DNA from: Calocera cornea HHB12733
Taxonomy: Eukaryota; Basidiomycota; Dacrymycetes; Dacrymycetales; Dacrymycetaceae
Reading direction: 5' to 3'
NCBI GenBank assembly: GCA_001632435.1
Contig: KV423934.1
Span: 1 to 64,000, forward strand
Length of the DNA stretch: 64,000 nt
The notes under the pieces are model-generated. The model did no database searches. It saw only the letters and a list, made by a program, of their open reading frames with translations, and had not been told where the DNA came from. The position numbers were made by a program, and so were the translations under genes. Shown piece by piece: positions 24,002-60,670 of this stretch; positions within the stretch are counted from its first letter, which is position 1; the number at the start of each line of letters is the position of its first letter.

Positions 24002-24006
24002 CGTCA
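24002..24006. repeat. Left target-site duplication CGTCA
   Basis: CGTCA directly precedes the left terminal repeat and is matched by CGTCA directly after the right terminal repeat at 60666-60670. Confidence 0.7.
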
Positions 24007-24018
24007 TATGGGACAAAA
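24007..24018 (+). repeat. Left terminal inverted repeat
   Basis: TATGGGACAAAA, the inverted partner of 60654-60665 with one mismatch. It is followed by C-rich subterminal sequence with TGTCCCGG at 24109-24116 and CCCGCATCCC at 24123-24132. Confidence 0.68.
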
Positions 24019-24827
24019 CTGTGTATCTCTATCCCGAATTTGCCCGTCCTCCTTGCGCCACGCTTCTTGCATCCGCCTGGCCTTCTTTGCCCGCAAACAG
24101 CCCACATCTGTCCCGGATTTGTCCCGCATCCCCGATTCACCACGTGCATTACACTCCTTCCGCCTTTTGGCCCGCATTTTCACGCCAACTGTCCCTATAA
24201 CTGCTCCCCATTTACACGCGCGCTCAAATATCCCTGAATTTCGCATACCCCGCATTCCCCCTCGAACCATATCAGGCAATCATAACTTTCTCCCCATTAC
24301 ACCCTTCGACTCTCACCCCAAGCCCTTGCTTCCAGACTCCGCCCCCTCCGCAACAACCCCCTTCGATATGTTTATTACCCGCGGCACGTAATGAGGTACT
24401 TACGGGGTCCCTTTCCACGGCTTCTCACGGTCTCCCTTGATCCCATCACCGGACCCAACGAACGCTTTGCTCCGGACTCTTCTATCAAATCATTTTTTCC
24501 TGTGTCGCTTCTCTGGGACCTCCTTCACCGTCTACGAGCCAATGATCGTATCTTCCTATGATGTTGATCTGCTGGATAAGCCCTCTTATCTCGTCGCGCC
24601 ACATGTTGCGTGTATTTACGCTTCTCTGTCCGCTCCTCCTCCAGTCATCCCAGGCGCCTGCCCGCGCCTTGTCATATTCCCTTCCATCCATCTCCTACTC
24701 CTCCCTTCACTTACTCGCTCTCTTCATCACTTTCAAAACCGTCGTTGTCACTGTCACCTTATGCCCCCTGCGGCCCCCCTGCCCCTCTCATGCCTGCAAT
24801 GCCAGGATTGTGAACGATTCATATATC
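24019..24827. other. Left subterminal region and promoter
   Basis: C-rich subterminal sequence of the element, then the presumed 5' region of the first gene. Several open frames run through it, but none has a better start or domain than the ATG at 24828. Confidence 0.4.
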
Positions 24828-27800
24828 ATGTCCGCACGTCGCCGTTCTTCCCATCACCGTGACTCACCATTCGTATCACAGTCTCTACCCGAGCCAGACA
24901 TCTTCGAACTCAGCACTTTATGCTTCTGTGGGTGTCCTCTCGGGCGGCATCACCAGCCTCGCCCCGCTCGCTTTCGGTCTGCCCGCTCCAGTTGCCGGTT
25001 ATTCTTCAGTGTACGTCTACGCCACACCTACCTTTATTTGACACTGTCTCAACACAAGTACCTGCAGAGCTCACCCGATTGGAGCAACCACACCCCCTGC
25101 GAGAATGAGCTGAACAGCAACGCAGTGTGTAATATCTCGTACATCCTTCATTTCCCCAACGCTATCTCTTCGGCGTCGTCGCTCTCCACCGACCCTATCA
25201 ATCCTGCTGCTCTGCCTCGCAACCCGTCCACATCCAGTGACCGCACTTCCAGTGCCGTCGCGGAAGTCGAGCCCATCCCTCAAACGAACTTGGGATTCCG
25301 CCGCTCTCCTGCTCTGCGTCCCACTTTCAACCCTCTCGCAACCTTGTCGTCACTTCCTGCGCTCCGAATTGGAGCTGTACCCTTCATGGACCGTCTCCAA
25401 CCCACGGAACAGGACAGCGTCAATTCGACTCGACTTGCCGCTTTGGCTCGGCATCTTCGTGACACGTCCACCCCTTCCAGATCAAGAGGTGCTCATCCTA
25501 ACCGCCGTGGGACCGCCCTTACGCCGTCTGCCCGGCAGGAACCTACTCCACACCATGGATTCCAACCTCTTGAAACCCAGAGCAGCACAGCGCAGCCGTC
25601 CCATCAGCCCAACACGCCAACGTCACACATCAGGAGCTCAACAGGGCATTCCAGCGCCACGATTGCTGTTCTTCCATGTCCTGTGTGTCGTTGTCCTACT
25701 ACCCGCGCATGCCAGCCTGACTCAAGCCCTCTCAGTTAGCCGGTATTCCTGGAGTCTTCCCTTTCACCGATTTGCATGGATTCCGACCTTATGGCGGGCT
25801 CAAAAAGGCCCAATTGGTCAACCTTGTGAATCGCTTGCAAGACTTCAACTTGTTATATGATCTTCATGCCCAAATTTCGCCCACTGCAATCCTCCACGAC
25901 CTCGACGTACTACTTCGAGCTCATCTGGAGGCACATGACCTTCATTTCCCTCCTGCCGATCGTGCGCAACTTACGGACGACACTGCTCGTTCCATTCAAC
26001 TTCAAGCCGATTCTTTATCATCGTATTTGTTCGACTTCGTCATTCCGGGACGTATGTCTCGAGGCACACCAGGGCCCTACACACTGCTCCAATCCCCTAT
26101 CAGTACCGAGGCCCCCATCCTTCCGCAGTTAAGGGATCGTTACAGGAACTGGACCAATCCACTGCAGACATATCGCCGGGATGTGCTGGCGTTTGTTGGT
26201 CTGTATATTCATTGCCCAATCTTCCTCTGCTAAGCTCGGTAACTGACTGTTCTTTAGTTCCTCGGTTTGGTGGACTTTCTGGCCACTTGCCACCCAGCTA
26301 TCATCGATCACCTGGTCTGCACCGATGCTTTGTCCGCATCGTTCTCCACCAACTCTCGCACTGTGACCCTCGGTTCGAGCATTTGGACGAATCTTGTTTG
26401 GGAGCGCAGTGTATTGTTCCACCCTATCAACATTTGCAGGGTAGTACACACACAATACGAACGCCGTCCGAACCTCTGCAAAGCGTCATACCTCAGCGTC
26501 GCCCACTCAGCGCGGTTTGTGTCTATCTTTACTTTCAAGACTACCCGTTCACGTTGTCCCTACTTGTAGAGCCCTCCGCCTCACCCCCATTCCCCGGCCA
26601 CCGTCCGCTCAACTCGTCCTCGCTTGTCTACTCAATCTCACACTCCTCAATCCTCTGCTTCTTCAGCAATGTCTATACCATCTTCATCGTCTTCCCCTTC
26701 CCCGTTCGCCGTCTCCCCTTTGACCCTTCCTGACAGTCAGCCGCAATTCTCCCCCTTGTCCCCAGCTCTTATCCGCGCATCCTCTCCGAGTCTTGCCCAA
26801 CTTCACCAATCCCGCACTTCTCGTCATACCACCACCCGGAGCCCACCGCCCGCCCTCGTATTGCACCGTTCTCCTCGTCCCCACACTCGTTCCCCGAGTA
26901 TCGAGGTCATTGATCTCACTTCTCCGCGTTCTCCCGCCTCCTCACCAATACCGTTCGGCGGGTTCAGCGTTGATCCACACACCGATGATGAAGCCGATTG
27001 GTCTCTTGGCTAGTATGAAGCGCTCTTTCTTGATTTATTCTGACCTCCCTATCAGAATGGACACCATTGGAACGAACTTCTGCCACTTTTCACGCTCGAT
27101 GTGCACAATGGAACGTCGAAGCTCGCCGCCTCGTTCCATCGCCACCTACCGAATTCTGCGGAGTCATCAGTGCCCCTGTCTACCCGGGTGAACCACGGTC
27201 GCACACCCATTCAGCGTTTCAAATGGTATCCTTGCAACTTGCTACCTCTTTGTTCACGCTCCTAAAGGCGGCGTATCCGGAATCCGACGGTCCTGCGCCT
27301 TCCTCTCGAGCTCAGTCTGCCCTGCACCATTATGTTTCTCGTCTCTGTCCTGGAACCTTTCGCGTCGAGGTGTAAGCATGTTCGGGGTTCCTCTCATCTG
27401 TTACTAATTTGTCCTTCGCAGTATTCGGCCCTTCAACGGGTCCATGTCGTCAGGTAGTGTCCTCACCGCCGGCGCCGGTCCGACACGACAAGCGTTGCGG
27501 ATGCTCCTTCAGCAATATGCTGCACTATCCCCTGAGATGTCAGCTACCAACCCCGACGGCCACCTGACTATTCGACCCAGGGATGAGGTCCACCGGCATG
27601 AACATAATGTCTTCTGGCGAGGTGTCGGAGTCCTCAGCGCAATATGGATCCTTCATACCAGCACTCCGCCTTTCAACATCTCTCCATTCCTTCTCTATGC
27701 GGCAGGTTCCCAACAGCAAGATATTACGGCTGATATCTGCCGACAAGCCTCTTTCATTCGGACTTTCGCCCCAGCTTCGTCCGCTATGCTTCATTCCTGG

Positions 27801-28819
27801 GATCGCCTAGCTAGCCACCATGTCTCCGATCCCTCTCGTACCCAAAAGCTCTCCCGGCAAGATCCACAGCACTCCATCAGCCAGTTTCTTCCCTTCTTGG
27901 AACAATTCGATCTCGTAAGACACTTCACCTTCATACAACTACCCTGCTCATCCTTCCTAGCCAGTTCCAGAATATGAGCTTGCGGCCTCCTGGCAGATAT
28001 CCCGTAATCAGCACAGTGACATGCGTCGTTTACTCACGGACACCTTTCTGTTTGGAAGCCCTGATACGTTAGGGTCGTCTCTTTTCCAGGCTTTCCGGGA
28101 GGGATGGAATATATTTGGCCTTGGCAGCGTCTATGCCTTCCCTATGCCCGCTTGCCATTACTGATCGGCATCAATTGTGTAGTTCTACGAACGTCAAGCA
28201 TTTTCCGATTTCAAGACTTTCCTCTGGGTTATATGGCAAGATCCGGCTGCAGACCCTGAATCGTACTTGTGCGACCGAATCAAATGGTTGCAATCACGCC
28301 CTGACGACAATGATTGGCACAATGTTCAAGCCTCACTCAAACGCTACCTGTCACGCGAGGGTCACCCACTCTGTACCTCCTCCTCCATGTCTGAAGGACT
28401 TCGGGCGGTTTACCTCAGTCTGGGACTGGATCCACAGAGTCTGACCAGTGACAATTCCGGTCTGCATGTACGCCGGCGCCTTCTCAATCGTGTTTGTTTG
28501 GGCGACCAAAATATGGGTGATTCAATAATCAAGGCAGGTTCATCGTACCACGCATTTTTCATGATGATAATCTTACTGCGATGTGGCCTCTTGTAGATCT
28601 CGCTTATTCCCCATCTCACGTCCAATGGATCACACGGAATCCCGCACCAGGATACCGAGTCTCTTGTTACGGCTCGAGTCTGCTTTTCAGAGCTGACCAT
28701 TTCTTATGGTACAGTATTGTTGGCCCTTGCAACCGAAACCGATGATGGGCTTCAGTTCGATCAGACTATACATGCTCTTCTGCTTAGCGCTAGTGACCCA
28801 TCCCACTTTAATATGTATT
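24828..28819 (+). CDS. Element gene A: Ser/Pro-rich protein with C-terminal HECT-like domain
   Basis: A multi-exon gene, partly modelled. Supported exons are 24828-25682, one starting at 25736 (FTDLHGFRPYGGLKKAQLVN), 27422-27914, 27961-28128, 28183-28489 and one starting at 28534. The N-terminal half is disordered. The C-terminal part resembles a HECT lobe: RPFNGSM then AGAGPTRQALRML, VFWRGVGVLSAIW then ISPFLLYA, and FQAFREGW. The end reads RVCFSELTISY then FDQTIHALLLSAS. Cys in RVCF would be the catalytic ubiquitin-accepting residue. HECT proteins are E3 ubiquitin ligases. Near 28656 the frame changes without an obvious intron, so the copy may be damaged. Exons between 26200 and 27370 are uncertain. 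Assignment rests on motif spacing only. Confidence 0.45.
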
Positions 28820-28884
28820 AGACAGGCATTCCACCCAGTCCGATCTTTTCCCCTCCACGGGTGCCAAGGCGGTTTTTACAGATT

Positions 28885-29990
28885 ATAGAGATGGTTTTGG
28901 GCGCGCTTGGGGGCAAAGACAGTGTTGAGCAGCTAGAACCGGCTTCGTAGGCAGCACATCATGTCTTCACCATGTCATTTGCGTTGAGCTTGCAAAGGCC
29001 GTTTCGTGCTTATAAGACAGTTTCATCAGCAGCTGCGCACTATTGTACTGTCTCCGTTACTGTCATGCTCGAACGATGATAGAGATAGTTTCGGGTGCTT
29101 CCCGTGCAAAGACAGTTTCGGTGCAAAGACAGTTTTCGGCGGTCTCACGCCGTTACATAGGCAGCGCACTTTGTCTTTCGCGCTCATCTTGCAAGGACGG
29201 CTTTCCGCTTATAAGACAGTTTCAACAGTTTTAGGAGCAGCCGACGAGCGCTTTCCCATCTGTGCTACTGTGGGATGCGACACATGTGCGGAGATGGTCT
29301 CGGGCGCTTGGCGTGCAAAGACAGTTCTCGGCGGTCTCACGCCTTTACATAGGCAGCGCACTTTGTCTTTCGCACTCATCTTGCAAAGACGGTTTCCGGC
29401 TTCTAAGACAGTTTTATAAGCAGGGGTTAAGGGATTTCCCATATGCGCTACTGTGAGATGCGACACATGGACGGAGATGGTCTCGGGCGCTTGGGAGCAA
29501 AGACAGTTTTCAGTAGTCCGAGGCGTTTTCCCAGTCAGTTTCCCCGTTTTTTTTCGGCTCTGAGCTGGTAAAGACGGTTTGGTGCTTAAAAGACAGTTTC
29601 ATTAGCATATTCCCACACTTGTACCGTCTTTGATACTGTGGCATGTGCCACATCATAAAGACCATTTTGAGCGTTTGAGAGTAAACACAGTTTTCAGTAC
29701 TAGTCCGAGGCGGTTTTCTACTCCGCGCATCAAGTCTTTGGCGCTCAGCTACTAGAGACAGGATCAACTGATATTACAGTACTAGAAGCAGGTGACCAGC
29801 TATTTTTCTTTGCACTACTGCAAGATGCGACACCTAGACAGCCTGACATGGTTTCGGATGCTTGAGAGCAAAGACAGTTTTCAGCAGTCCGGGGCGGTTT
29901 GTACTCAGTGCAAACAATTACGAGATTAGCTTCGGGACAGAGTTCAAGAACAGACCTTGTTCCTTCTACTTGGCCGTTTGCAGCGACACC
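28885..29990 (+). repeat. Satellite-like array R1 (about 180-210 bp units, AAGACAGTTT core)
   Basis: About six degenerate tandem units. Each has a GAGATGGTYTCGGGCGCTTGG-like start, then GCAAAGACAGTT, AAGACGGTTT and AAGACAGTTT. Starts lie near 28885, 29080, 29291, 29474, 29655 and 29849. The core has the same orientation as in array R2 and the opposite orientation to arrays R3 and R4. Confidence 0.75.
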
Positions 29991-30460: not shown

Positions 30461-31992
30461 ATGCATCGACTATGGTATATGCCTGAGCTGGTTCATCTCA
30501 TTCTACAGGAACTCGACTCTTTTCCGCCCGCCCTCATCAACCTGGCGTGTACAGCGAGACGCTTCAGACACCCCGCCCTTTCGCAAGTTTGGGTTGTACT
30601 CAACGGCCAGAAACTAGTAGCGCTGAACCGCACGCGTTTTCTTACTGCTCCTACTAACTGTCACGGAGTAAGGCATACTTGACTCTACATTGAGATAGAC
30701 ATCATCCGCTGATACGTGGGCAGATGAGAACAGCAACGACTTACTATCGCAGCCTACCTCAACGCATCTCGCTCGACTTCACCTCGCCGGATGGCAAGGG
30801 GGCGCTGTTGACGTGGACTCTCAGAGATATTCTGAGACTTCGGGATCCGATCTTCTCCTCACTCTACTCCGTCTGTGCTATGGTCAACAGCCCCCCGCAT
30901 ATTGCTCTTCTACTCGATCTGTTCGAACACCATCCCCATCAACTCAGCCGAATCGTTCTCGACTTCGGCGGCAACGCGTGGTCTGACTCTGATGTATCTC
31001 CTCTTCTACACAGACTCATCAATTTGGCACCAACACTTGCCAACCTCACCCTCCATGGTGTCCCGTTGTTAGCTTCTTCAACATCGACGCTCCTCGCCTC
31101 CGTCATCAAGTCCGCAGAAGATCTGGACACCCTCTCGCTCGTTATGCCTCAATTCTCAACGAGTATCCTCCGCCGCATCGCATCCTCTTGCAAGCTCAAT
31201 AACCTACATATTTCCGGTGCTGTGAACATCCCTTCGCAGGACGATCAGCCCGTTCAGTGGCGGCTACGCTCTCTCACCAAGATTAGTCTCCGAACCTCTT
31301 TATATGCGGCAAGATCTATTGTTCGAGGCTTATCCATGTCAATTTTCTCGCTCAAGCTCTCCCTGGTGCTCTCCGCGGCAGAGGAAGACCGATTACAGGA
31401 CATACTGGAAGACATCAACGAGCGTTTGCCTCTTCTTCGCAGCGTCCATCTGGAGCTATGGGTACACGACCACGATGAAAACAAGATATTCTATTGGGAC
31501 CAGGTTACGCCCCTGCTCCATTGCAACCACATCAGGACGTTCAACCTCTCCATCTACTCCCCCTGCGCTATCTACCTTCAACAAGGCCACTTGGACGCGA
31601 TCGCTCGAAGCTGGTCTCAGCTCAACACGTTCACGTGTCATTCAGGTTCGGCCAATTCTACCCTCAGCGCGGCCGCGGATCTCAATGTTCGTCGATCTTG
31701 CCCGATATCTTTCCATGGGCTTCTCCGCTTCTCTGCTTTGCTTCCCCACCTCCGCCGAGTCCACATCAATCATCTTAAAATCTTCTCACCGGAAACAAAG
31801 CTAGTATTCGGCAGCCGGCTCCAAAGCATTCAAATCGACAAGCTCACGGTTGAAAGCCTCGATTCGGCGGCTCTCATGCTCAATTTCTCCTTGCCCGCCG
31901 TTTTCATACAAGTCACTGACCGTACCGACGAGACTCAGTTGGGCCGCCCGATCTACAAGCGCATGAAAGCTCTCCGCAAGCTCCGAACGTAG
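30461..31992 (+). CDS. Element gene B: F-box protein with leucine-rich C-terminal part
   Basis: Two exons (30461-30667, 30724-31992; phase 0, 56-nt intron) give 491 residues. Residues about 4-45 form an F-box-like segment (MPELVHLILQELD, then LINLACTARRF). The rest contains repeated leucine-rich strands (LSLVMPQFS, LHISGAVNI, LKLSLVLS, HLELWVHD), typical of basidiomycete F-box proteins. F-box proteins recruit targets to SCF ubiquitin ligases through Skp1; the target here is unknown. No frame breaks are seen. It lies between arrays R1 and R2, and is convergent with a second gene of similar type. Confidence 0.7.
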
Positions 31993-32251: not shown

Positions 32252-33902
32252 CTACGCACAGCGGAGCTGTTCTTGCGATTCGTCCAGTAAAGCCTTCACA
32301 CCCAGCCACAGAGACTGTTGAGTAGGATCGAGCAGCTCGATGTGGATACGAGGAGGCAGCATCGTAAGCTGCAGAGCGGTGTATTGCTCATTAATGAAAA
32401 CACCCGTCCCCACTTCGATCGTCACTTTCGGACCTTGACGGGGCAATAGCGCACGCCAGACTAGTCCTTCAGCAAAGCTCAGACGTGGGAGCCGAATCGA
32501 TTGCAAATTCACGGTTTCGGACAGCCATTGCGTGAGCCCGGTAAAGGTGACTTTCGCTACGTTCTCGTCATGAAGATTCCTCGTCCAGGAAGAACCAGAC
32601 CAATAGTAATGAACCGTCTTCAGGTGTGACGCGAAGAAGCCCATAGAAACCAGATCTTCGTCTCGCAGGTTAACAGGACAGGTGCCCGTGTAAGTGAGTG
32701 AGAAACCCTCCAGCTCAGTGCCCATCCACATGGGCCTGAAGTCGTCCCAGTCCAACACCGAATCCGCGCATGTTACATTCGTTGTGAGCTCAATTTCCAG
32801 ATTTTTCAGATCTTCGACATTGTCGGCAAGTATTCTTGGGAGATAGCCCATAAAGGCGCTGTTCTCCGCCGACATCGTACACGTTAGGGTCATATGACCG
32901 ACTGACAGTCCCGACATCGCCTTCAGAATAAGAACGGCCGTAGCAGGCGATGTCTCGATTACTACAGCACGCAGGGCCCGTTTCGATGCAGTGTCTGGCG
33001 ATAATATCGATACGCGCGGAACACAGATCTGATTGATCCAGAGGAGCCCTGGCGTATCGAGGATTCTAAGATCGCGAAGACACGGAACTTGGCATAGCGC
33101 ATTAAGTAGCGATCTTCGCACTACCTGTGCATCTAGACCGACGTCGCCCAAAACCTTCGACATCGTCAGGAAGTCTTCGAGCAGATGAGGATATATGCTG
33201 GGAATGGGCGGCAAGCCATGTAGGTTCAGTGCTTTGAGCGTCGATGTGACGATTTGCAGTTTGTTGAAGAAGGCAGTGATGAGAGATGATGTTTCTTTGG
33301 ATTCAGAGGCGCTCGGCTTGACGTTTACGTGGATTGTATGCGTGCATGGTGCGATAAGACGAGAAACGATGTCCAGATCGTCAACACTGACGGTAGATAA
33401 ATCGATCTTGCATAGATTCGGAAATACGGCGACTAAAGCGTTTGATCTCTCCAACAACCCTAAAGAAGCGTGCAGCCTTGAAGCCTGCTCTACCGTCCGG
33501 ATGTCCAGCGCTAATTCATGGATCATGGACCCGTAGAAGAGGGTAGGCGTTGTAATCATCTGTCTCCCTGTGAGTACAACACAATAAGCCCCTTCTCCCA
33601 GTACTTGCCTTGCTGTTTCGATCTTCATAGACGGTCGTAGAAGGCCAAGCATTGTCGGAGAGGATGTGTTCGGCCAAAGCATTCAATGTGGACGCGTCTG
33701 CGCATTCCCACAGCACGGGCATGACCTTCGCGAACACGTATTTGGAGCATCGCGCAAAGCAAGCCAGAGCTTTTATGTCGTCTTGCAGGATATGATATGC
33801 AATCTCGACCGCGACGCCGTCGGATGCAAGGGCATGCATGATCTTCGGTTGAACGGAGAGCGATGGATAAGGAAAGACCCAAAATGGAAGGATCGCTTCC
33901 AT
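32252..33902 (-). CDS. Element gene C: F-box/LRR-like protein
   Basis: Two exons (33902-33605, 33567-32252; phase 1, 37-nt intron) give 537 residues, or 516 if the ATG at 33839 is used. The N-terminus (VAVEIAYHILQDDIKALACFARCSK) resembles an F-box. The body has leucine-rich repeats (LRDLRILDTPGL, LKNLEIELTTN, LQSIRLPRLSF) and the end is LLDESQEQLRCA. The intron is unusually short. Substrate recognition in a ubiquitin ligase is inferred only from overall architecture shared with gene B, with which it is convergent. Confidence 0.6.
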
Positions 33903-34629
33903 CCTTGGACGCGCGATGAAACGCGTGACGTAATCTGCATCCGATACGCGTATCTTGCTCACACCGTACTAGCACTACGCACGGTCAGCATGGGGACTCT
34001 TCACTGATTTCGGCCTCTGGTAGCCTGGCGCACGGTGCGGTATACCTATCAGAAGTATTGCTTCAGTTCTCTCACGCATCCATACAGGTTTCCATTCGAA
34101 CTCGAAGCCACGGTTCCTCAGGAAACCGCGCACCTGATGATCATCTTGATTCTGCAACGTGTTCCTTTGATGGATCCGTTTGATCCGTTCCGACCAATCC
34201 GGAGAGCCTAACAGACTTCCTTGACGGTCACTCGACTTCTCACGCGGACCTGACGCGATACAGGTATCCGATGGCATTGGTTGGATTGATAATATAAGCG
34301 CCTTGTGTTCTTGGGTTCTCAATCCTACAGCGGTCCGCCTCTGTCGACTGATCATCTATTCTGTGAACTCTATATCCGCCGTTATCGCCCATAACCGTAG
34401 AACTCGCCATCATCCACACACCACATCTAAGTACATAGTCATTATGACCCAAAAATCCACATCACCTGGAGCGGGGTAAAGTGCGTGCTTCCGAGAACCG
34501 CTCTCACGGACTCGTTCCTGACGGTCATCACAACCAGCTGCTGCAATGCACTGCCTTTCCGCGAATTCACCGCTTACAATTGGATACAGTCTGCCACCGC
34601 TAGAAGGACCCACCCACCGCGCTTCGTCA

Positions 34630-37072
34630 ATGCAGCATGCATTGTGTGAGGTCCTGCAAGCCGTTCAAGCGCACGTCGACCGCGTGAAGCTTGCGAACCC
34701 GCACATATGGCCTGAGGCGGCGAGGGAGCTCGAGGCCGCTACAATTGAGGAGCAACGCCTGCAACGGGAAATCATCGAGTCAGAAATCGCGTTGCAAAAG
34801 TACTGGACAGATGTCGTCATGTACGAGGTCCAACAACTGGAGTGTATGTCCCGGGTAGTTCCATCCGTTACATTTCCCTGACATCGTTCACTGCTTGGTT
34901 GTGGAAGATGTAGATTTCCCATCACCAACCTCAGAAGAAGTTCGTCTGTGGTGGGAGTATTTCGGTCAAGATGTGTGAGTGAGGACACTTAACATCAAAC
35001 ACCTCGCTGGGCTGGGACTGTAGTATTACGCAGCCACGTTCCGTTATGACCATGTTGATCACATGAATTCGGCATGTTCATGCAGCTAGCCTGCCGCATC
35101 ATGATACCGTTCTTTATGGTGAGAACGTAAAGTGCAACCTCCTTTGTCTGTCGCCATTCCTAATCAACGCTGCCGACAAATGCGGAGGAACCACGAGTAT
35201 CGTAGAGTTCCCGCTCTAGTGCACCTTGACCCCTGTCACCCTTTTGTAAACAACCCAGGACGAGAACCAGGTTGTCGTTGTAGCAATAGTGGACACAGCC
35301 GCGGTGACCTCGGCGTTCTCAGAAGCAAGGGAAGACCCTGTGGCGGTGTCGACTCCTGTAACATGCCGGTGCCGCGTCAAGCGGCCATCGGTCCCTTCTC
35401 GTGTTTCGGAGAGCGTGCACCGCTGCAAAAGTGTGATACATGGCGCAACCTCAGGCGACAGCGGCCCTCGCTCCTTTAAGAGATACCCCAGCCGAGGTGA
35501 GCGAGACGTAACAAGTATGTAATAGTCTAATCAATCAGGCGTAGCGTCTCCGCACATGTGATCTCATCGCACAACGCCGATCGCAAGTGAATCCAGGTTT
35601 GTTGGACGCGTATCAGCACCTTGTCCGCCCTGTCCTTCAATTCATCATTCAACGCAGGTATGAGCATTGTATGTTCCATTTTTGGCCACGCTTGTCTTAC
35701 CCCGCGTCCTGTAGAGATCTCGCCCCCCGCTTTGTGAGGGAGGAATATCCCGGTCTCATTTATACGCCGGTCTTCGTCCCCGGACCCAGTACCCTCCTCT
35801 TTGACGACCCTATCGACCTGTCACTATATGAGGATCCAACGAGGAACACCACGGCCGGTTCGCCAACCGTGAACACCACAGCTGGTTCCACGAGGAGTCG
35901 TCTACGAACGATGCCGGAGGAACCGCCTCCACCTCCTGCGAGCGCCGTTGGGATGAGGATCCATCAGATCAGCACTATGGGGACTCCGTCCGTCCAGACT
36001 CATTTCCAAGAGGTCATATGTGAGTTAAGCTCGTGAAGTCAAAGGGCAGCTGAATCATGAGCATAGATAGGCTATGGCTCGAGAAGAGTCAACCAGCCTC
36101 CTGGCACGACTTATTCGAAAAGGCAATCGTGGCGTTTTACCAAGCTGTGATGCACGGAAGTTTTGGCACCGCCTTGAAGTACTCGCGATGCCCGAAGATG
36201 TTCTGCTGCGCTGGATTGCTCCGGAATGGACTGCTGATGACGGACGAGGAGCATCGTGCCTTGTGCTCCCAGTTTGCGTCTTGCCCCTCGTCGACACAAT
36301 GGTTCCTTGCGGGTACCTCCCTCCCGCCTCATTCCTGGCCCATCAGCCGATTTCAGAGCCAGGCTAAAGCACTCTCTCAACGCGCCCGCCGTAGGCTGAT
36401 AGCTCGGTTGATCGGTGACGCTGGTGTCCGGCGCATCCACGAGCGACTCGATTCACTTGTCTTCCTCGCCGCAAAAGGCTTCTTCTACCAAGGGGAAGAT
36501 ATCCAGTGGCAAGCGAAGGGCGTCCCTGTCTTCAATTGCTCCGAATGGATCATATTTGCTGTGTGAGTATTTGTCATCATGTCAACAGCATTGTTTGACC
36601 TTATCAACCGCAAAGATTGGCGGATCTGTTGTTCAAGAACGAAATCGGCCCTGACTGGTCCGGCGTTGAGCTACGCATTCTCGTGATTGACAGCGTCATC
36701 GGAGGCGCAGTATGCAAGGGTCGACTGGGGAATACCGCGTTGAGCGATGTTGAGCGATGGGACCAGATCCGTCAATCTGTCCAGCGTCATTCAGCCACGT
36801 GCTGCGTGATGTGCCGCCTTGTGCTTTCGAGCCTGCGAAGCGGTTGGCCTACTGAAATGGCTAATATTCGTGTCACACAATGGACTCAGACGACAAGTCC
36901 GCAACCCCCTGGACAACCTGTCCAGCCGGAGTGGGTTTGGGACGACGTGCCTACCTACGACGACCTTGTCGACCTCGATACATGGATAGAGCTGAATATC
37001 GCGCTCGTCCACGAGAACTGGACCGATATTTTCAACGAGGACCATTTGGAGGACTCAGACGACGACGCTTAA
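34630..37072 (+). CDS. Element gene D: unrecognised protein with coiled-coil start and acidic end
   Basis: The first exons are clear (34630-34843, 34908-34974, next from 35024) and start with a helical, Glu-rich segment (EAATIEEQRLQREIIESEIALQ) likely to form a coiled coil. Later coding blocks run to 36036 (RDLAPRFVREEYPGLIYTP), then about 36069-36560 (LWLEKSQPASWHDLFEKAIV), and from about 36617 to the stop at 37072. The last block has FKNEIGPDWSGVELRILVIDS, two CC/C pairs (CCVMCR) and an acidic tail EDSDDDA. Exons between 35050 and 35590 are unresolved. I do not recognise the family. Continuous long-range frame logic suggests a real gene. Confidence 0.45.
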
Positions 37073-37187
37073 CCTTAGACTTGCAACATACAGAATAAGT
37101 CCGCTGGTTTCGAGTAACATTGAAATTGCATGCATTAATGTCATTGATCATTACATACTGTGTCTATCGATAAGCCTCGGTTCCTGC

Positions 37188-46600: not shown

Positions 46601-48315
46601 ATCCTGTATTGCCAGGATGTGGAAAGACGGGCCTTCTGAGGGTCATAATAAAGCATTTCAATCGGCGGTTTTCAAACAGCCCCAACGCGCTGGCGGTGAC
46701 GGCCCCAACTGGAATGGCTGGTGTGGCGATCGGAGGCACTACGATTCATACTTGGGCTGCTCTTGGTTACGGAAGAGATACTGCGGAGATTCGCGCAGAC
46801 AAGATTCAAAATTGGCCGGAAGCGTTAGCGAAGTGGCGCGAGGTGAAGGTGTTGATCATCGATGAGAGTAAGTCATGACGTTGCTCGAAGTAGGCCTGGA
46901 TTGCCTCACGGTACTAGTATCGATGGTCAATGGTATCATGTGGGATCGTCTGGAGAAGATGGCTCGGATCATTCGGAACGACCCTAGGCCATTTGGAGGC
47001 ATACAGGTACAGTAGATGAGTTTCCCTCTTGTGGGGCTATCTGATTGTTGATCTCATGTTCAGCTGGTCGTAACTGGAGATTTCTTTCAGCTGGGACCAA
47101 TGCCAGTCCCGGGCTGCAAGGAGAGCCCATTGTTTGCTTTCGAAGCGAACAGCTGGGACGCATGCATGACAAAGTGCTACAAGTTGACGCGTATCTTCCG
47201 CCAAAGGGATCAAGGTATGGCGGCATACCAATACTCAGGCCTGGGGCTGATATCTCTCGATAGCCTTCATAGACGCGCTAAACGAAGTTCGTATCGGCAA
47301 ACCAAGCCCGAAGACGTCAGCTGCATTTCGTGCCTGCAGCAGATCTTTGCCTCATGCAGAAGCTGTTCAGCCTGCGCGCTTGTGAGCTCTCTACCAGCTG
47401 CTGATCGTGTTCATGTTCCGCATGCTGACTATGGCTACTAGATTTGCAAGACGGAAACAAGTCGAAGAGGCGAATAAGGTGCAGTACGGTCTGCTCAATG
47501 GGGTCGAACACCACTACGTTGCGTTCGACAGCGGCAATGAAGACGAAATCGACGAAGAGTTGAAACGTTCTGGGACGAGCTTACCGCCTGCCTACCTTTC
47601 GCTAAAACTTGGCACGCAAGTTATGATCACGAAAAACATACACAATCGGAATCTGTGGAACGGAACCATGGGCAAGATTAAAGGCTTTATGACAAGGTCG
47701 GAGTGGAATCGCCGGGAAACGCAGTCACCCTATCACCCGGGACCATTAACGGGACGACAACGATTTGACGCCGGCAAAGAAGGTGACTTCGCAAACGAGC
47801 ATATGCTTCTACCTTGGGTACGGCTGAAGACTCCGGATGGATATCGTGATGAACTGGTTGGTTACGAACGATGGGACGTGTATGCACCTCATGGCATGAT
47901 TGTCGCTTGCCGCGAACAGGTAGTTCCATGAACAAGAATGACGTCTCGAGACTGATTATCCCTTGATCAGATTCCTTTGGTGCACGCATACTGCCTGTCG
48001 ATGCACAAAGCGCAGGGCAAGACGTTACCTTGCGCTGTTGTCGATCTTGCGTATGCCTGGAAGCCAGGTATCTTATCTTGTATTGCTGTTTTGTTTGTAC
48101 CGATTGGACTGATGGTTTGCTCAGGTCAGGTCTACGTGGCGCTGTCACGTGTACAGTCTTTCTCGCAACTGCAATGTTTGCGTTGGCGTATAGACTATGT
48201 GAGTTGAAGTCGCACACGTGGACGTCTGACTGACGCACCGCCTCAGATCAAGGCCGATCCGGACGTAGTAAGATATGACAGGACATTGCCCACTGTTCCC
48301 GCCGGTTACACATAA
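43602..48315 (+). CDS. Element gene G: Pif1-family DNA helicase with long disordered N-terminus
   Basis: Nine exons (43602-46554, 46616-46867, 46918-47006, 47064-47214, 47264-47381, 47442-47919, 47971-48067, 48125-48198, 48247-48315) keep phase and give 1426 residues. The first about 950 residues are Ser/Pro-rich and contain 66-residue tandem repeats. The helicase core is complete: LSAEQAYIFKLV, Walker A GPAGCGKT (about 981-988, split by intron 1), TAPTGMAG, Walker B VLIIDEISM (split by intron 2), VVTGDFFQLGP, LTRIFRQRD, LSMHKAQGKTLP and YVALSRV. Pif1 enzymes unwind DNA 5'-3' and act on replication and G-quadruplexes. No Helitron Rep domain is fused or nearby. Whether it serves the element or is captured host cargo is open. 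Confidence 0.85.
44541..45090 (+). repeat. 198-bp coding tandem repeat in the Pif1 gene
   Basis: Nearly three almost identical 198-bp units (66 codons) encode ADESPSRAALTTGD and ASSPVLQASAAS-type sequence. Near identity at the nucleotide level implies recent expansion or homogenisation. Confidence 0.85.
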
Positions 48316-48489
48316 GGCGCTTTGTCGGAGCGTTGCAAACACCCATACATTACTTGGTTGGAACTATAACTTCTAATTATACATAAGTTAATTCCAGTGC
48401 ATGAAGATTTCTGTGCTATGCTCTGCTTTTAAAGAATCTACTTGGTCGAACCGTGTCTATGATAAAGTCTGGCTCGGCAATGACCATGA

Positions 48490-48960
48490 CGGCGCGTAGC
48501 AAGCCAGAAACTGTCTTTGGGCCGCCGAAACTGCCTCTCGCGAACGCGCACCAGACTGGGGCACGGGGCCGCACACTGACTGAACGAGCATGGGAAACTG
48601 TCTTATGAGCCCGAAACCGTCTCTACGAGAAGGTCTGGTGCGCCGACTTCAGGACCACGGAGGGGTGCTGGCGAGGGAGAAAACTGTCTTTGGGCTGCCG
48701 AAACTGCCTCTCGCGAACGCGCACCAGACTGGGGCACGGGGCCGCACATGGACTGAACGAGCATGGGAAACTGTTTTATGAGCCCGAAACCGTCTCTACG
48801 AGAAGGTCCGGTGCGCCGACTTCAGGACCGCGGGGGTGCTGGCGAGGGAGAAAACTATCTTTGGGCCGCCGAAACTGCGTCTCGCGAACGCGCATTAGAT
48901 TGGAGCACGGGGCTGCACACGGACTGCACGAGCATGGAAAAACTACCCGGAACCGTCTCA
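48490..48960 (-). repeat. Satellite-like array R3 (about 171-bp units, reverse orientation)
   Basis: Two and a half close copies with GAAACTGTCTTTGGGCYGCC starts at about 48508, 48680 and 48851. Each unit also holds GAAACTGCCTCTCGCGAACG and GAAACCGTCTCTACGAGAAG. It lies just after the end of the Pif1 gene. Confidence 0.85.
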
Positions 48961-49251
48961 TGGCAAGGTCTATGGAAGGATTGAGCAGCTTGCATCGCCC
49001 TCTGCGGAGCCGAGGCCCATCCAAGGTCTGGCTCCCCTGTCTGAGTCTCGCTCTCTTTTCCCACCTCTTATTAGTCATCTGCATTTGGACTCCGCTGTCA
49101 CGGAGGCTAACTCCGGCCATTCCCCCCTGTTTCTGTAAGCTTAGATTCCCTTCACTAGGCGACATTCAATACAACCATTCTCTCCCGGTGATTAATATCC
49201 TTACCTAATGCGCTAAATCATGCGTTAACTCCCACTCCGGACCCGTTCAAG

Positions 49252-49798
49252 CACCATCCAAGCGTTTTAAATCACTGTTAACACGTGTTAACACCCGTTA
49301 AACCATCCATGAAGCCTGTTAAATCGCTGTTAACTGCTCTTACGCGGGCGACTACCCTGACTGTGAATGGAGCGCGACGCGTCCCAGCTCCGAAGTGTCG
49401 CCGCCGTCTGTCGCCCTTTTACGCATGCATACATCCTTCCCATATCATATCTCAACGCTTTACCTCCTTTTTTAATCAACACTTTATCTGTCCTAACGCT
49501 TCACCGTCCCGTACCCGTAATCACCATCCAAGCGTTTTAAATCACTGTTAACACCTGTTAACACCTGTTAACACCCGTTAAACCATCCATGAAGCCTGTT
49601 AAATCGCTGTTAACTGCTCTTACGCGCGCGACTACCCTGACTGCAAATGGAGCGCGACGCGTCCCAGCTCCGAAGTGTCGCCACCGTCTTTCGCCCTTTT
49701 ACGCATGCATACATCCTTCCCATATCATATCTCAACGCTTTACCCCCTTTTTTAATCAACACTTTATCTGTCCTAACGCTTCACCGTCTCGTACCCGT
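49252..49798 (+). repeat. Direct duplication of about 270-280 bp with CTGTTAACACC runs
   Basis: Two near-identical copies start at 49252 and 49522, differing mainly by one extra 10-nt GTTAACACCT unit in the second. The copies lie upstream of gene H. The inverted form of the same short motif occurs upstream of gene I at about 54665-54785. Confidence 0.85.
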
Positions 49799-49888
49799 AC
49801 CCGGCCTCACCATCAACCCTCCAACCTCGCGGTGCTTCCTCTCCTTCCTCCAGCCGCGTACAGAACGCCCGTTCATCTCTCGCTGTCG

Positions 49889-54420: not shown

Positions 54421-54664
54421 TCCAACGCTCTGTGGCCGGAAGTTCTGGCGGTTTAGATTGAGGGATGAGCGATATGCGCGGTTTTACCCACTGAAGGAGT
54501 CATATGGAGAGCGAAACCGAGGATACTAAGGACGAGGGCGATTTAGCAGGGTGAGGACGGATTCCCGCGTACCTTGAGCCCAGATATGGCGGTCCAGACT
54601 GGGGGATACGCGCTAAGCTCATGCTCTGCAAAGAAGAAAAGGCAGGAAGAAAGGGCGTAGCAAG

Positions 54665-54785
54665 GTGTGAACAGGGTGTTAACAGGGTGTTAACAGGTAT
54701 TAACAGGGTGTTAACAGGGTGTTAACAGGGTGTTAACAGGTATTCACAGGGCGTTAACAGGTATTAACAGGGTGTTGACGGGGTA
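54665..54785 (-). repeat. Tandem GTTAACAGGGT repeat
   Basis: About ten imperfect 10-11-nt units (GGTGTTAACAG and GGTATTAACAG). Read on the minus strand this is CTGTTAACACC, the same motif as upstream of gene H. The two therefore form an inverted pair bracketing genes H and I. Confidence 0.85.
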
Positions 54786-55124
54786 TTATGATGACCTAAT
54801 GTATTGTCGCAAGTGGTTGGTGACGCTAGTGGACTAGTGTTTAAGACTGTGAAGACCGCATGAAGCCTAGTTAACGGTTTTTAAAGAGATGACAGTGCTG
54901 GTGAGGACCGTGCGTGGTTATGCGAATGAAGTCGACTTGAGTTAGAAAAATGAGGGAGAGATAAGAATCTACAGAGGGGGCAAGGGTAGAAACGAGGCGG
55001 TCCAGTTCAAGTAAGTATTTGTGTGAGATGGGGCCTTGGTCTAGGGAGGGAAGTGCGTCCAGGACACGCGTCAAGTGAGCTGCTCACTCCGGCTTTCAAT
55101 GAAGGTCTGCCTCGCTTAGACCGC

Positions 55125-55560
55125 GACGGGGTGCTGGCAAGGCAGAAACTGTCTTTCGGCCGCCGAAACTGCCTTTCGCGAACGCGCATCAGATTGGGGC
55201 ACGGGGCCGCACACGGACTGGACGAGCATGGAAAACTGCCTTATCAGCCCGAAACCGTCTTTATGACAAGGTCTGCCTCGCTTAGACCGCGACGGGGTGC
55301 TGGCAAGGCAGAAACTGTCTTTCGGCCACCGAAACTGCCTTTCGCGAACGCGCATCAGATTGGGGCGCGGGGCCGCACACGGACTGGACGAGCATGGAAA
55401 ACTGTCTTATCAGCCCGAAACCGGCTTTCCATGAAGGTCTGCCTTGCTTAAAGCGCGACGGGGTGCAGGCAAGGCAGAAACTGTCTTTGGACCGCGGAAA
55501 CTGCCTCTCGCGAACGCGCACCAGACTGGGGAACGGGAGGGCCCTGGACGAGGGTGGAAA
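55125..55560 (-). repeat. Satellite-like array R4 (about 167-bp units, reverse orientation)
   Basis: Two and a half units with GAAACTGTCTTTCGGCCRCC starts near 55146, 55312 and 55479. They share the full unit structure of R3 (GAAACTGCCTTTCGCGAACG, GGCACGGGGCCGCACAC, GAAACCGTCTTTATGACAAG) and the same orientation, inverted relative to R1 and R2. Confidence 0.85.
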
Positions 55561-55828
55561 ACTTTCTTCTAGCTGCTGAAAACCGTTACTGCAGGCTGGG
55601 GAAGCAGAATTTGCATCAAGACTGATTTTTCAGCGGCGGATATAGTAGTAGCAGGCGGGCGAGAAGCGGCAAGTGCACCGCGCGTTGGATTACAAAGCCA
55701 ACTTTAAGATGAATAGGATAGATACGATGATGACAATCAGAACATCTTGTAAGTGGCAAGAACGCAGAGGCGGATTGAAGAAAGGATAGAAGGAGGCTAT
55801 CCAAGTGTCCCGGATGACATGCATGTCA

Positions 55829-56608
55829 TCAGACTCTACCGGCCAGAGCATTTCGGTATAAAGCACCAGAAGCGATAGCCCGCGGAGGCGCAAAGCGCGG
55901 GAAAAGGTGAGCGAGCTGCCTCTGGACCTTGTTTGCAGTCCAACGGCCAGCTGTCTCCACAACTTCACCGGTTGGCGTGCCGTCAATAACACGACTGCGC
56001 TCGGCTGGCGTCCGCGCGAGGGTGTATCCGACGACTCCTAGAAGCAAGAGCTGCGCCCGTCCATGCTCCGTGGAGTTATCGGGTGAATCCCAGTTGCCGC
56101 GCTGGTTGAGGTAACGTGCTCGACCATGTTCCCAGAATGCTTTGTATCGGTTGAGCCAGCCTTTGTGATTGTTGAGCGTTCGTCGACTGAGGGGGACTCC
56201 AAGAGGCAGGGTTGCAAACCACTCAGCGATATGGTCAGCCATGATAACGCCATCCCAAGGGTCAACGGGCGGGGCACGGTAGGCATCCAAAGCTCTGGCA
56301 GACGGCATGCCGAGTGTTGAACACACTTCGCTGTACAAGATCACCCGTCGCATGAACCATATGAAGCTGTTTAGAGCAGTCACGTCGTCCTCCGTGTCGA
56401 AGCGAGATAGTGAGGACAAAACGTGGGGGAACCGATTCGCGAGGTATTGGGCCAGCCTAGCGAAGTTCGGTTGCGTCGCGGTCTCCGCTGACAGGGTTTG
56501 ACGTGGCTGTCCACTCGATGGGATGACAGCAGCACGCGGGCCATCTCGATCTGACCCCAGAGGCGATGGGGGCTGCACAAGGGGTGGCACATCACTATCG
56601 CTGAACAT
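55829..56608 (-). CDS. Element gene J2: unrecognised 259-residue frame abutting J1
   Basis: An open frame beginning MFSDSDVPPL directly after the TGA of J1 (stop and ATG are adjacent). It holds LSSLSRFDTEDDVTALNSF, FMRRVILYSEV, WLNRYKAFWEHGRARYLN and QRQLAHLFPRFAPP. Without an intron this would be a second cistron or reinitiation product. More likely it is the C-terminal part of one J1-J2 protein joined by an unrecognised intron (an acceptor TTCAG lies at about 56600). Family unknown. It is next to the integrase gene, in the same orientation. Confidence 0.5.
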   Translation of the reverse strand: MFSDSDVPPLVQPPSPLGSDRDGPRAAVIPSSGQPRQTLSAETATQPNFARLAQYLANRFPHVLSSLSRFDTEDDVTALNSFIWFMRRVILYSEVCSTLGMPSARALDAYRAPPVDPWDGVIMADHIAEWFATLPLGVPLSRRTLNNHKGWLNRYKAFWEHGRARYLNQRGNWDSPDNSTEHGRAQLLLLGVVGYTLARTPAERSRVIDGTPTGEVVETAGRWTANKVQRQLAHLFPRFAPPRAIASGALYRNALAGRV

Positions 56609-58045
56609 TCATAGTTCGTGCGACTGTGGTTGAGGTAAAAGAGCGGGATTGCTGCGAGTTCCGGACGCGTCGCGAATAGGGATGGCTTGAGCTCGGGTTG
56701 CCTCCGATGGTGGGGTAGTGGGCAGCATGGAGGCGTAGGTCTCCACCAGCTGGGTCTGATCCTGAGACTGGCCAACCAGATAGAGGACGTAGACAATGCG
56801 ATTGAAAAGAATGGTAGGCAATGAGATCGGGAGACGGCGGAGGAATTCGCGAGTTTCGGGATGTGACATATCCATTGGCTCGATGTGTTCATTTGTTGAA
56901 GTAGGACCATGGAGAAGGTTGCGAAGCGTACCCACAAATCGCTGGCCGGGGATTTCCCAGAAGGGTTTAGGATATCGGCCCCGAACCGATGGAACGGTAG
57001 ATGTGCCCACATGGAAATGATTGTAGCGTGGGTCAGAGAACTGGTCGAGGGCGTGCCTGGGTACAGTTGCGGATGGTAGCAGGACTCGAGGTAGGAGAAG
57101 AGTAATCGGAGGACAATTGGGCAGGTCACTCTTATGGATGCCTGCACGGGCGAACACAACGCCTTGCCGAGGTGCCCCGTCGAAGAGCAACAGAAGAACC
57201 GAGCAAGAGTTGGCTGAGGTAGAAATGCGTTAGAAACAGCGAACTGAGTACTTGATTCATGGACCGTACCGGGAGAAGTCGTAGATGGTGACAGGAAAGA
57301 CGGGTCTGGAGGGATCGTTGGATACGGTGCGGTCGATTGGTTCCAGGTGGGAGGGTTACCGGTCGGAACAGATAGAGGGGTTATGGATCGTATGGTGCTT
57401 TCCTCCAATTGGTGAGTATGAACAGCTTGATCTCCAGCAGAACTATATTGAGACGCATGTCCTGGCTGGTTATTGGGCGGTAGAGGATCGAATGGAGAGG
57501 AGACGGAGGTGTCGTGATGGCCCAGAAATCGGCGGCGCTGAGTGCGTTCCGCTGCAAGAGCAGCCAGGAAACTGGCAAGACAGTCAGCGGCTGGATAGAA
57601 AGTAATAACACTTGATAGAGTGTGCGCACTGGTTCTGAACCGCATAATCCCCGACATTTCCTACGATTGGAAGCAGATCGTCGTGAGAGGTGGATGCTGA
57701 TGATGCAGATAAATGGGCCGAAGGGGGCGAGGCAGCTTCGCCGGGGAGATTGTCGGACTCAAAGACAGATGTGTCGCGGGAAGATGGTTCGTCATTGAGC
57801 AACATTTCGGCCAACTGCGAGTCATGTTCATCGGACGTCGGGGAGACGGCTGGCAATGAGCGAGGGGAACTTGTGGGAGGAGTCAGCTCTAGGGCTTGAG
57901 TAGGCTGAATGGCAACGCGAATTTGTTGAGGTAGTCTCTGAGCTCGTCTTCTGATAACACGATCCGAGAGATACTGATTGGAAAGGTCGGGAAGGCCGCC
58001 GCGGGAGAGGGAGATGCTACGAGTAATTCGCGGTGACTGAGACAT
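56609..58045 (-). CDS. Element gene J1: unrecognised protein upstream of J2
   Basis: Three exons (58045-57630, 57571-57252, 57213-56609; introns 58 and 38 nt) keep phase and give 446 residues. A Ser-rich N-terminus contains a basic patch (DRVIRRRAQRLPQQIRVAIQ). Next comes a hydrophobic segment (SVLLLLFDGAPRQGVVFARA), then GRYPKPFWEIPGQRFVGTLR and RLPISLPTILFNRIVYVLYL. No family recognised. Its place beside the integrase and its intact frame make it a candidate accessory protein for transposition, which is inference from position only. Confidence 0.5.
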
Positions 58046-58241
58046 TTGAACGTACTGAACAGAGGAGGTGGATGGACGGAGGCAGAGTCAACGTTGACAA
58101 TGGCGCGAGGGATGTGGATCGGGCATCATATTCCTACGCTTCCTATTTACTACGTTTGGATATGACTAGGGGATTGAATTACTGCACATGACAAGAAAAA
58201 ATGCTGAACTAAGTGAAAATGAATAATACTATAGCTTATGG

Positions 58242-59954
58242 CTACTCTGCAAGGGGAGTGAATGTGATACAAAGTTCGTAGGACCGTTGCCATCGGCCTG
58301 TCAGAGATGTGTGGTCTGCTTGGGCAAAGTGTCCTTCGTCCGTGAGCGTACGCTCGAGCATAGCAATATCATCACTGTGAAAAGGCTGACGGGGAGGCGT
58401 TGCATCAATCGTATTGAGACGAGATGGTATGGGATCTCCGACTGCAGGAGAGGAGGCCGAAAGGGGCAAGAATCCAAAGTTAGGCAAATGAAGAGGATCG
58501 CGAGGCAGAGCCTGTGATGGGAGGTGAGGGGAGGTTGTATCCAGAGGCGGTCTGGAATGGATTTGGGGATCTTGGTCAAGACCCCTGGCACCATGCTGAA
58601 GACACCCGGCCAAGAAGAGCTCAGCTGGTCGCTGATTACGACCATCCAAGGACAGCGTGTGATAATTCCAAGAATTCTGAAACGAGACGGCGTCATCGTT
58701 TATGTCATCGAGAAAGAGCCATTGAATGAGCCAAATGTGGTCTTGGTTGAGGGGATTCAGGCCGTGGTTGCACTCCAGCGAGTGGAAGAACTCTGCCCAC
58801 TTTTCAGCGAAGGAGTTGTTGACGTCAACCCACATCCTTTCGATGCGAGTATTATGGACAGAGTTTCCCCCGATGTAGGAGCCGCGGTTAGTGCCACGGT
58901 GCTGGACCATCCACTCGGCTACACGAAGGTTTTCGGCGCCATGGTCTCCGCGGACGCGGGACGGGGTACCGTAGTACTTGCGGGCCTGTTGGAAGACCTG
59001 GAAGACGGTGTCGGCTCGGTTATTCCGACTGACACGGATGCCAAGAACACAGCGGGAATAGCCGTCGACGAAGCAGTGAATCCACATCTTCCAACGGTGG
59101 AATCGATGGTTGCCGTCATGATGCCATAGAGAGTTGGGACCGGGAACGGTGTAGCGACGCCGAGGGATGATGCGGCGTTCAAAGGTGCGCCGGGTCACGT
59201 CCAAGCGTCGTAAAGAGGCAGTGAGGCGGTGTAGAGGTACGTGATGGCCGAGTGCCACTAAATGGCCGTTCAACATTCGCCGTCCATTGTCATTGAATGT
59301 AGTACGCCATGCTTTGACAAGATTGTCGAGCTGGAGATCGGTGATAGATCCTGGCGTGGGTCGTCGACCGACGTATCGGCGCCTTGTCCCTGACCCCGTG
59401 TTGGTTTCTTCGTAGATGGGCTGACCAGGGGGGGAGAGTCCGCTTTCGAGGAGACGACGTTGGAGTGTTTTTGAGGATAGGCGAAGAAGACGCGCGGCCT
59501 TCTTGCGGCTGGACAACCGGGCTATCTCCTGAAGGAAACGGAAGTCGACGACCTTTCGGGGTCGTCCACGGCCGCGCGTATTATGCTGGCCGGAGACAGG
59601 CTGGGGAATACATCGTGGCAGATTATCGATGATGGTGGAAAACGCCTGATCGAGTTGAAGGAGCATATGACGAACATCACGCTCTATTGCAGTGTTTTCG
59701 GCGGGGGTGAAGACATGAAGGACCTAGAATAGTGTGGTGAACGACTGAACAACAATGGAGTGAAAGGTACTGACAGGTTGGACTGTGGTCCAGAACAAGA
59801 CAACAGCAGAGCGTGTAGCCTCCAAAGCACCCCGATCTCCGGCATCAAGACGAAGCGAGTGAACAACACGACGTTGAAGAGTCTCAAATTCTTGAGCGAC
59901 GACGTTGCAAGCCTGTTCCGGGCGGCGTAAGATGGCTTCGGGATTGAGGGGCAT
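58242..59954 (-). CDS. Element gene K: rve-type DDE integrase/transposase
   Basis: Two exons (59954-59775, 59723-58242; phase 0) give 553 residues. Residues about 120-156 form a helix-turn-helix-like segment (LSSRKKAARLLRLSSKTLQR) after a GRGRPRK AT-hook-like motif. The catalytic core is LWHHDGNHRFHRWK (Asp about 263), VRGDHGAEN (Asp about 320) and NTRIERMWVD (Glu about 355), with 34 residues between the last two acids. GTNRGSYIGGNSVHN between them is typical of an integrase-core family found scattered in animal and fungal genomes. All three acids are present, so the enzyme could be active. It lies 0.7 kb from the right terminal repeat, facing inward, as expected for the mobilising enzyme of this element. 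Confidence 0.85.
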
Positions 59955-60653
59955 ATGGGTTGCCGAACGTTGAGAAGAAAGTGCGACGGATAAATATGAA
60001 GTGCAAGATGGATGACGGGGGATGAAGACCTGAACGGACCATGGAGCACGGCGGATGAAGACCTGACCGAACCATTGGGTTGATAGTCGTCATGAGCTGC
60101 AGAAAGGATCCGAGGTCCAGCTGAAAACGAAAAAAGAGACCGATTCGGATCGCGAGCTGGGAGCTGATACCAAGAAGATATGATAGATAGACCGCGTGAT
60201 GCCATTTGTGGAGGAGTAACGATGTGTAAAGAACCTCTTGCGGTTGATGACTGCCCGATGGTAGCGAAGAGCCTGTTGGGGAGGGACCCCAGGGCGCAGA
60301 GATTGCAGAGTACACCGAATTGGCGCGACATGCGCACGCGACTAATGCCGGAGACAGAAAGCTCCGTTTGCAGCCGTGGCCCGGGCCGTAAATATTTGAG
60401 GAACGTCGGACCAGGAAATGCATTGTGTGATATAACAATATGTGTAGAGCTGGACGAAGGTAATGAGGCGTTTCCGGAGGTGGTGCAGGACGCGGGACAT
60501 CACCGTGCGTGGCTGTGCGGGGAAAAGCAGTGGCGGAGTCGGGCAAAGCGCGGGCGCGGGAAGGGACCGGGACAGGATGAAGCGGGATGCGGGGAACAGG
60601 GGCAGGAGAAGGGAGGGACAAGGGATATCGGAGGCGATGCAGGTGGTGTGCTT
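59955..60653. promoter_or_regulatory. Integrase promoter and right subterminal region
   Basis: Sequence between the integrase start and the right terminal repeat. It contains GGGATGCGGG (60584-60593) and CCGGGACA (60567-60574), the inverted partners of the left subterminal motifs. No gene is supported. Confidence 0.5.
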
Positions 60654-60665
60654 TTTTGTCCGATA
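60654..60665 (-). repeat. Right terminal inverted repeat
   Basis: TTTTGTCCGATA, reverse complement TATCGGACAAAA, matching the left end at 11 of 12 positions. Confidence 0.68.
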
Positions 60666-60670
60666 CGTCA
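60666..60670. repeat. Right target-site duplication CGTCA
   Basis: An exact copy of the left CGTCA. VPS45 begins 137 bp further on. Confidence 0.7.

Follow-up and report, generated by a model that had tools for sequence, protein, structure and literature searches.

A gene-rich giant DDE transposon lineage in Calocera cornea, most likely a branch of IS3EU/GingerRoot

Does a 36.7-kb, gene-rich interval of the basidiomycete Calocera cornea, bracketed by short inverted motifs and holding one integrase gene, represent a single mobile element, and if so, where does it end and to which kind of transposon does it belong? We addressed this question in positions 1-64000 of contig 21 (the window) of the 32.1-Mb, 302-contig genome. 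To our knowledge, few eukaryotic giant transposons have had their exact ends, target duplications and sister insertions worked out. Elements are named here after the contigs that carry them (C21, C48, C14, C52, C76, C154 and others), with C21 being the copy under study. The comparison of copies indicates that the C21 interval is very probably one copy, intact as far as it was read, of a giant Calocera cornea transposon lineage, most likely a gene-rich branch of IS3EU/GingerRoot.

A preliminary description of this DNA had placed the ends at 24007 and 60665 and had taken CGTCA, found on both sides, as a 5-bp target duplication. Both inner motifs are present, the 12-mer TATGGGACAAAA at 24007 and an inverted partner with one mismatch at 60654-60665, and CGTCA lies outside each of them. 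By itself, the 12-mer is no evidence for element ends, as it is not enriched in the window (2 matches at up to 2 mismatches versus 2.97 expected from shuffles). The similarity between copies runs 12 bp beyond these motifs, and the ends were therefore set at 23995 and 60677, giving an element of 36,683 bp with the following borders.

23989..23994, unstranded: left copy of the target-site duplication, GCCGAG
23995..24018, plus strand: left terminal inverted repeat, 24 bp, TATGACG type, TATGACGCGTCATATGGGACAAAA
60654..60677, minus strand: right terminal inverted repeat, 24 bp, TATGAGG type
60678..60683, unstranded: right copy of the target-site duplication, GCCGAG

CGTCA falls within the terminal repeat and not outside the element. 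The two inverted ends pair at 19 of 24 positions, which makes the right end the top reverse-complement match to the left end across the window; the runner-up, at 18/24, is the palindromic left end itself.

To find sister copies, a degenerate end pattern built from the ends of C21, C48, C2 and C71 was searched genome-wide. It matched 25 sites when 3 mismatches were allowed and 20 when 2 were allowed; a reversed control pattern gave 7 matches at up to 3. Twelve of the 20 closer matches form six two-ended elements, while the other 8 are single ends.

C21, giant, 36,683 bp: duplication GCCGAG, 6 bp
C48, giant, 38,873 bp: duplication AACGCGT, 7 bp
C14, giant, 33,736 bp: duplication CCCCAC, 6 bp
C52, giant, 29,602 bp: duplication CGCGTT, 6 bp
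C76, derivative, 571 bp: duplication CACAGGG, 7 bp
C154, derivative, 571 bp: duplication GTTGGCC, 7 bp

The preliminary description had made its case depend on a second copy sharing these ends, and further copies bearing ends of this type were indeed found. All 12 ends of the six elements start with TA, and the four giants span 29.6-38.9 kb; the C48 repeat can alternatively be read as 6 bp plus one extra element base. A perfect 6- or 7-bp direct repeat stands at the corrected boundary in six of six elements, whereas equal 5-mers occur at the CGTCA position in none of the five others, and the empty site described below sets the border of a derivative at the outer boundary. Despite the CGTCA beside both inner motifs, ends at 24007 and 60665 with a 5-bp duplication are thus refuted by the comparison of copies and retain practically no probability: they fall 12 bp short of the true ends, and the actual duplication of 6-7 bp lies 12 bp further outward. 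Among the single ends, C34, C94, C4, C39 and C255 run toward a contig end no more than about 8.3 kb away, C2 and C71 run into N stretches, and the eighth is C154:41042. As a separate observation, all four giants, C21, C48, C14 and C52, show opposite GC skew at their two ends, negative over the leftmost 3 kb (-0.26 to -0.34) and positive over the rightmost 3 kb (0.07 to 0.24).

The contents of the giants were compared at the translated level, with C21 set against the other elements, which defined a core of five gene blocks common to all four. Domains were sought by a Pfam scan of 37 of the 78 element frames of at least 100 amino acids and of 8 spliced or partial models.

24558..28821, plus strand: core gene G1, modelled with about 10 exons, ~1,260 amino acids
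40356..43173, minus strand: core gene G4, ~835 amino acids, with a cysteine-rich C-terminus (YRCQTCQ...CFLKN..C)
43602..48303, plus strand: core gene G5, a long low-complexity N-terminus followed by a spliced PIF1-family helicase
55829..58072, minus strand: core gene G6, with the conserved upstream block G7 (57608-58072)
58242..60083, minus strand: core gene G8, DDE integrase/transposase (rva_4)

The integrase reported earlier for this region is borne out by a 203-bit match of G8 to PF24764 (rva_4), with the main exon at 58242-59723 and an additional conserved block at 59763-60083. G8 has a retroviral-type integrase fold, and its catalytic triad (D184, D241 and E276, P0001 numbering) is invariant in 26 sequences, among which no cysteine is invariant or nearly so. 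Related integrases occur across mushrooms. The helicase part of G5 matches PF05970 at 2e-32 and PIF1 in the PDB at 5.6e-80. G1, which adjoins the left end in copies where the left side was read, gave neither a Pfam nor an informative PDB match, and G4 gave no Pfam or PDB match. The predicted structure of G6 is helical, at modest confidence, and G7 is possibly part of the same gene. A 198-bp coding tandem repeat in G5 (44525-45093, about 2.9 copies) contains the intergenic-array motif GACAGTTT.

All core blocks of C21 (G1, G4, G5, G6 with G7, and G8) were found within the three other two-ended giants, which lie at different sites. The partly read C2 carries G4 to G8, its left part reading as N, while C71 carries G1 and C4 and C39 carry the start of G1. 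The C21 models of G1, G4, G5, G6 and G8 are free of interrupting stops. Integrase identity falls to about 50% among the giants, yet the ratio of nonsynonymous to synonymous substitution rates (dN/dS) in the core lies between 0.08 and 0.28 wherever dS is finite, which indicates purifying selection. More specifically, the C21-C48 comparison gave 0.13 for G8, 0.15 for G6 exon 2, 0.16 for a G5 exon, and 0.09 and 0.28 for two G1 exons; the sole finite value for G4 is 0.18, between C48 and C2. Furthermore, G6 homologs occupy 14 loci in the genome, and 13 of these lie within 32 kb of one of the 25 integrase loci (grouped from 57 genome matches), 7 of them within 3.1 kb; such proximity is expected by chance at about 5%, with the 32-kb limit having been fixed after the distances were seen. 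These results bear on a chance composite, in which two short IS3EU-like ends would bracket ordinary host genes that moved once or never. The existence of mobile 571-bp elements bearing ends of this type and the variation of the cargo genes G2 and G3 between copies would suit such an arrangement, but the core retained under selection in every other two-ended giant and the pairing of integrase with G6 strongly disfavour it, and its probability is very small. A single giant element with a target duplication, many genes and one integrase, as first described, is supported.

Further evidence comes from copies that have moved. C34 and C94 are 99.97% identical over 3,569 bp and 100% over 341 bp, beginning at the end repeat, and their flanks, compared over ~155 bp, do not match each other. 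C4 and C39 are 99.87% identical over 1,527 bp, beginning 3 bp outside the end. The 571-bp derivatives C76 and C154 are 99.3% identical across exactly their full length, versus 68-78% identity to the ends of larger or partial copies. Near-identical copies that sit in different flanks point clearly to recent movement. A segmental duplication of the gene block without transposition would account for the long aligned stretches that the copies have in common; however, the similarity stops at the ends, the compared flanks differ, each two-ended copy has its own target duplication, and a derivative has an empty site. Such a duplication is therefore extremely unlikely.

This empty site was recognized from the joined flanks of the C76 derivative, which, on our reading of the flank search, match a dispersed repeat unbroken across the junction at 13 loci. 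At base level, four of four loci checked (C63, C109, C141 and C181) are uninterrupted at the insertion point. Three of them hold two CACAGGG units versus three in all at the filled site, and in C181 one of the units is a variant. The uninterrupted repeat copies thus represent an empty site for this derivative; due to the 7-bp tandem nature of the target, the duplication length was taken from the added 7 bp. Several copies of the dispersed repeat itself (C76:118183-118548) are adjoined by its last ~48 bp in inverted orientation, and the repeat therefore resembles a small inverted-repeat element with tandem CACAGGG units.

To which family does the lineage belong? In the portion of the published accounts available to us, complete families of IS3EU are characterized by TA..TA termini and, as a rule, 6-bp duplications (PMC10045372), together with a DDE transposase without an HHCC domain (PMC10045372, PMC12730594). 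The Calocera elements have TA..TA termini and duplications of 6 bp in C21, C14 and C52 and of 7 bp in C48, C76 and C154, and no HHCC was seen by eye in P0001. Since termini and 6-bp duplications fit, the C21 element was filed as a probable IS3EU/GingerRoot member, most likely a giant gene-rich variant. The earlier view that no named family applies thus gives way as regards the ends and holds for the gene set, which has no counterpart in that portion of the description (PMC10045372): unlike the IS3EU elements described there, the Calocera giants reach 29.6-38.9 kb and carry a PIF1 helicase and three other conserved proteins. IS3EU has been named in Ganoderma (PMC8955403, in part). The IS3EU elements of rusts and truffle, as far as the excerpt goes, carry TET/JBP and alpha-kinase genes and have terminal repeats longer than 30 bp with TAYGG ends (PMC12730594), whereas those of C21 measure 24 bp and neither domain was found in the C21 frames scanned.

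Other large elements were considered in the same manner. An endogenous virus or a Polinton/Maverick-like element would combine an integrase that makes 6-bp duplications with genes of a viral kind. The large size, the retroviral-type integrase fold and the 6-bp duplications, which Polintons make too, are consistent with this. Polintons, however, have long terminal repeats and C21 has short ends, and no family B polymerase, capsid, packaging ATPase or protease was matched in the 37 frames and 8 models. G1, G4 and G6 lack a family match and thus leave room for a divergent capsid; as a whole, a viral or Polinton origin is improbable. Helitrons carry a PIF1-type helicase, as C21 does, and Starships use a tyrosine recombinase captain, in contrast to the DDE integrase of C21, whose scanned frames and models hold no tyrosine recombinase. 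The G5 helicase reaches 273 bits against a solved PIF1 chain versus 56 against Helraiser, and no Rep domain of a Rep/HUH endonuclease was found in its N-terminus (P0002) or helicase part. Based on part of an account covering Helitrons, Polintons and Teratorn (PMC6431247), C21 differs from Helitrons by its inverted ends, target duplication and DDE integrase. It resembles Teratorn as a giant eukaryotic DNA transposon with additional genes, but Teratorn joins a piggyBac element to a herpesvirus, while the C21 frames scanned are without viral genes (PMC6431247, same part). With Starships, which have been reported in a basidiomycete, it has in common the giant size in a fungus, a mobility gene and variable cargo (PMC13066641, in part). 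Separately, the genome holds 81 PIF1 matches, many in open frames of 1,900-2,300 amino acids, which, to guess from their length, resemble Helitron proteins.

Several points weigh against the placement of C21 in a mobile IS3EU/GingerRoot lineage. The duplication length is not constant, with 6 bp in three elements and 7 bp in three, and the family placement follows a match to the published description and not a transposase phylogeny. The preliminary description had proposed an empty site as a check; one exists for the short derivative, whose ends are of the same type, and none was found for the 36.7-kb copy, as the joined flanks of C21, like those of C154, matched only themselves in searches that covered C21, C76 and C154 and not C48, C14 and C52. 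The 7-bp tandem target weakens the C76 evidence, and the paralogous match there extends only 27 bp to the right of the junction, up to the end of the repeat. The gene models are our own predictions, made without transcripts. dS is infinite in many wider pairs, including both G4 comparisons with C21, and C48 has one in-frame stop in a G6 exon and one in a G4 exon. One G6 homolog (C43:93404-94078) lies on a contig without an integrase match. Protein searches with G1 and G6 (about 8,000 candidates scored each) matched only Calocera, and the G4 comparison was confined to the Calocera cornea genome.

Between the core blocks lie cargo genes and repeat arrays.

28985..29900, plus strand: repeat array, GACAGTTT motif, 3' of G1, facing the cargo
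30461..31992, plus strand: cargo gene G2, with a match in C48 but in no other element compared
32252..33929, minus strand: cargo gene G3, with a match in C48 but in no other element compared
36054..39587, unstranded: cargo reading frames, partly common to C2 (26-40% amino acid identity) and weakly to C52
39819..40186, plus strand: repeat array, GACAGTTT/GGCAGTTT motifs, 3' of G4
48451..48960, minus strand: repeat array, AAACTGTC motif, 3' of G5
55089..55586, minus strand: repeat array, AAACTGTC motif, 3' of G6

Cargo content differs between elements. Between C21 and C48, dN/dS is 0.29 for G3 and 0.33 for G2, and the frames at 36054-39587 gave no Pfam match. Of 21 GACAGTTT/AAACTGTC sites in C21, 18 lie within 1.1 kb 3' of G1, G4, G5 or G6 and the other 3 lie in G5 coding repeats; in C48, all 12 lie within 1.5 kb 3' of core genes, and window positions 1-23900 contain neither main motif. 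C14 and C52 use another motif, AATAGCKGAA, placed similarly, with 11/15 and 11/11 sites, respectively, no more than 1.5 kb from the 3' end of a core gene; G5 of C14 is not followed by such a site, and four C14 sites are found 2.2 kb past G8. In the portion of C2 covered by this comparison, none of three GACAGTTT sites fits this placement, and nine sites of two related 8-mers follow G5. As motifs and distances were picked after seeing the data, the placement pattern serves as a lead only. The order of the C21 segment at 30.4-48.3 kb is inverted in C48, and the coincidence of the inversion borders with oppositely oriented arrays suggests recombination between arrays. Arrays rich in TGTTAACA (49249-49799 and 54664-54788, 10 sites) were also seen in C21; the other elements read have this motif once or not at all.

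For the IS3EU/GingerRoot-like lineage, a possible course of transposition can be outlined. The G8 integrase would pair the two 24-bp ends, cut at TA..TA and join the ends to staggered target cuts, giving 6-7-bp duplications. Ends with at most 571 bp may be enough for movement in trans, as the short derivatives suggest. PIF1 promotes break-induced replication, and the helicase probably aids copying or repair of the very long element after excision, by break-induced or gap-repair synthesis. G1, G4 and G6 would be transposition helpers retained by selection, with variable cargo between core blocks and border arrays that may permit swapping and inversion. A bolder reading, which we hold only tentatively and consider rather doubtful, is that of a distinct giant eukaryotic transposon class: a DDE element whose own PIF1 and three new helpers would copy 30-39 kb by break-induced-type synthesis, with border arrays as sites of cargo exchange and module inversion, making it a basidiomycete DDE counterpart of Starships.

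An IS3-like DDE integrase can thus be linked, in a basidiomycete, to 30-39 kb of DNA with a conserved multi-gene core. The defined ends and 571-bp derivatives offer a system for asking how an enzyme of the cut-and-paste type copes with DNA of such length, as well as for questions on transposon-borne PIF1 function and cargo exchange. The Agaricomycete relatives of the integrase suggest that more such elements may hide among proteins labelled only 'integrase core domain'.

To the left of C21 lie two ordinary host genes, a WSC-domain frame (8465-10078) and a tRNA-Gln (5353-5434). To the right, a Sec1-family match (PF00995, 1.9e-62, frame 61128-62216) lies in the region 60807-62216, and the ATG frame preceding it begins 124 bp from the duplication, so that the insertion may lie in the promoter of this Sec1-family gene.
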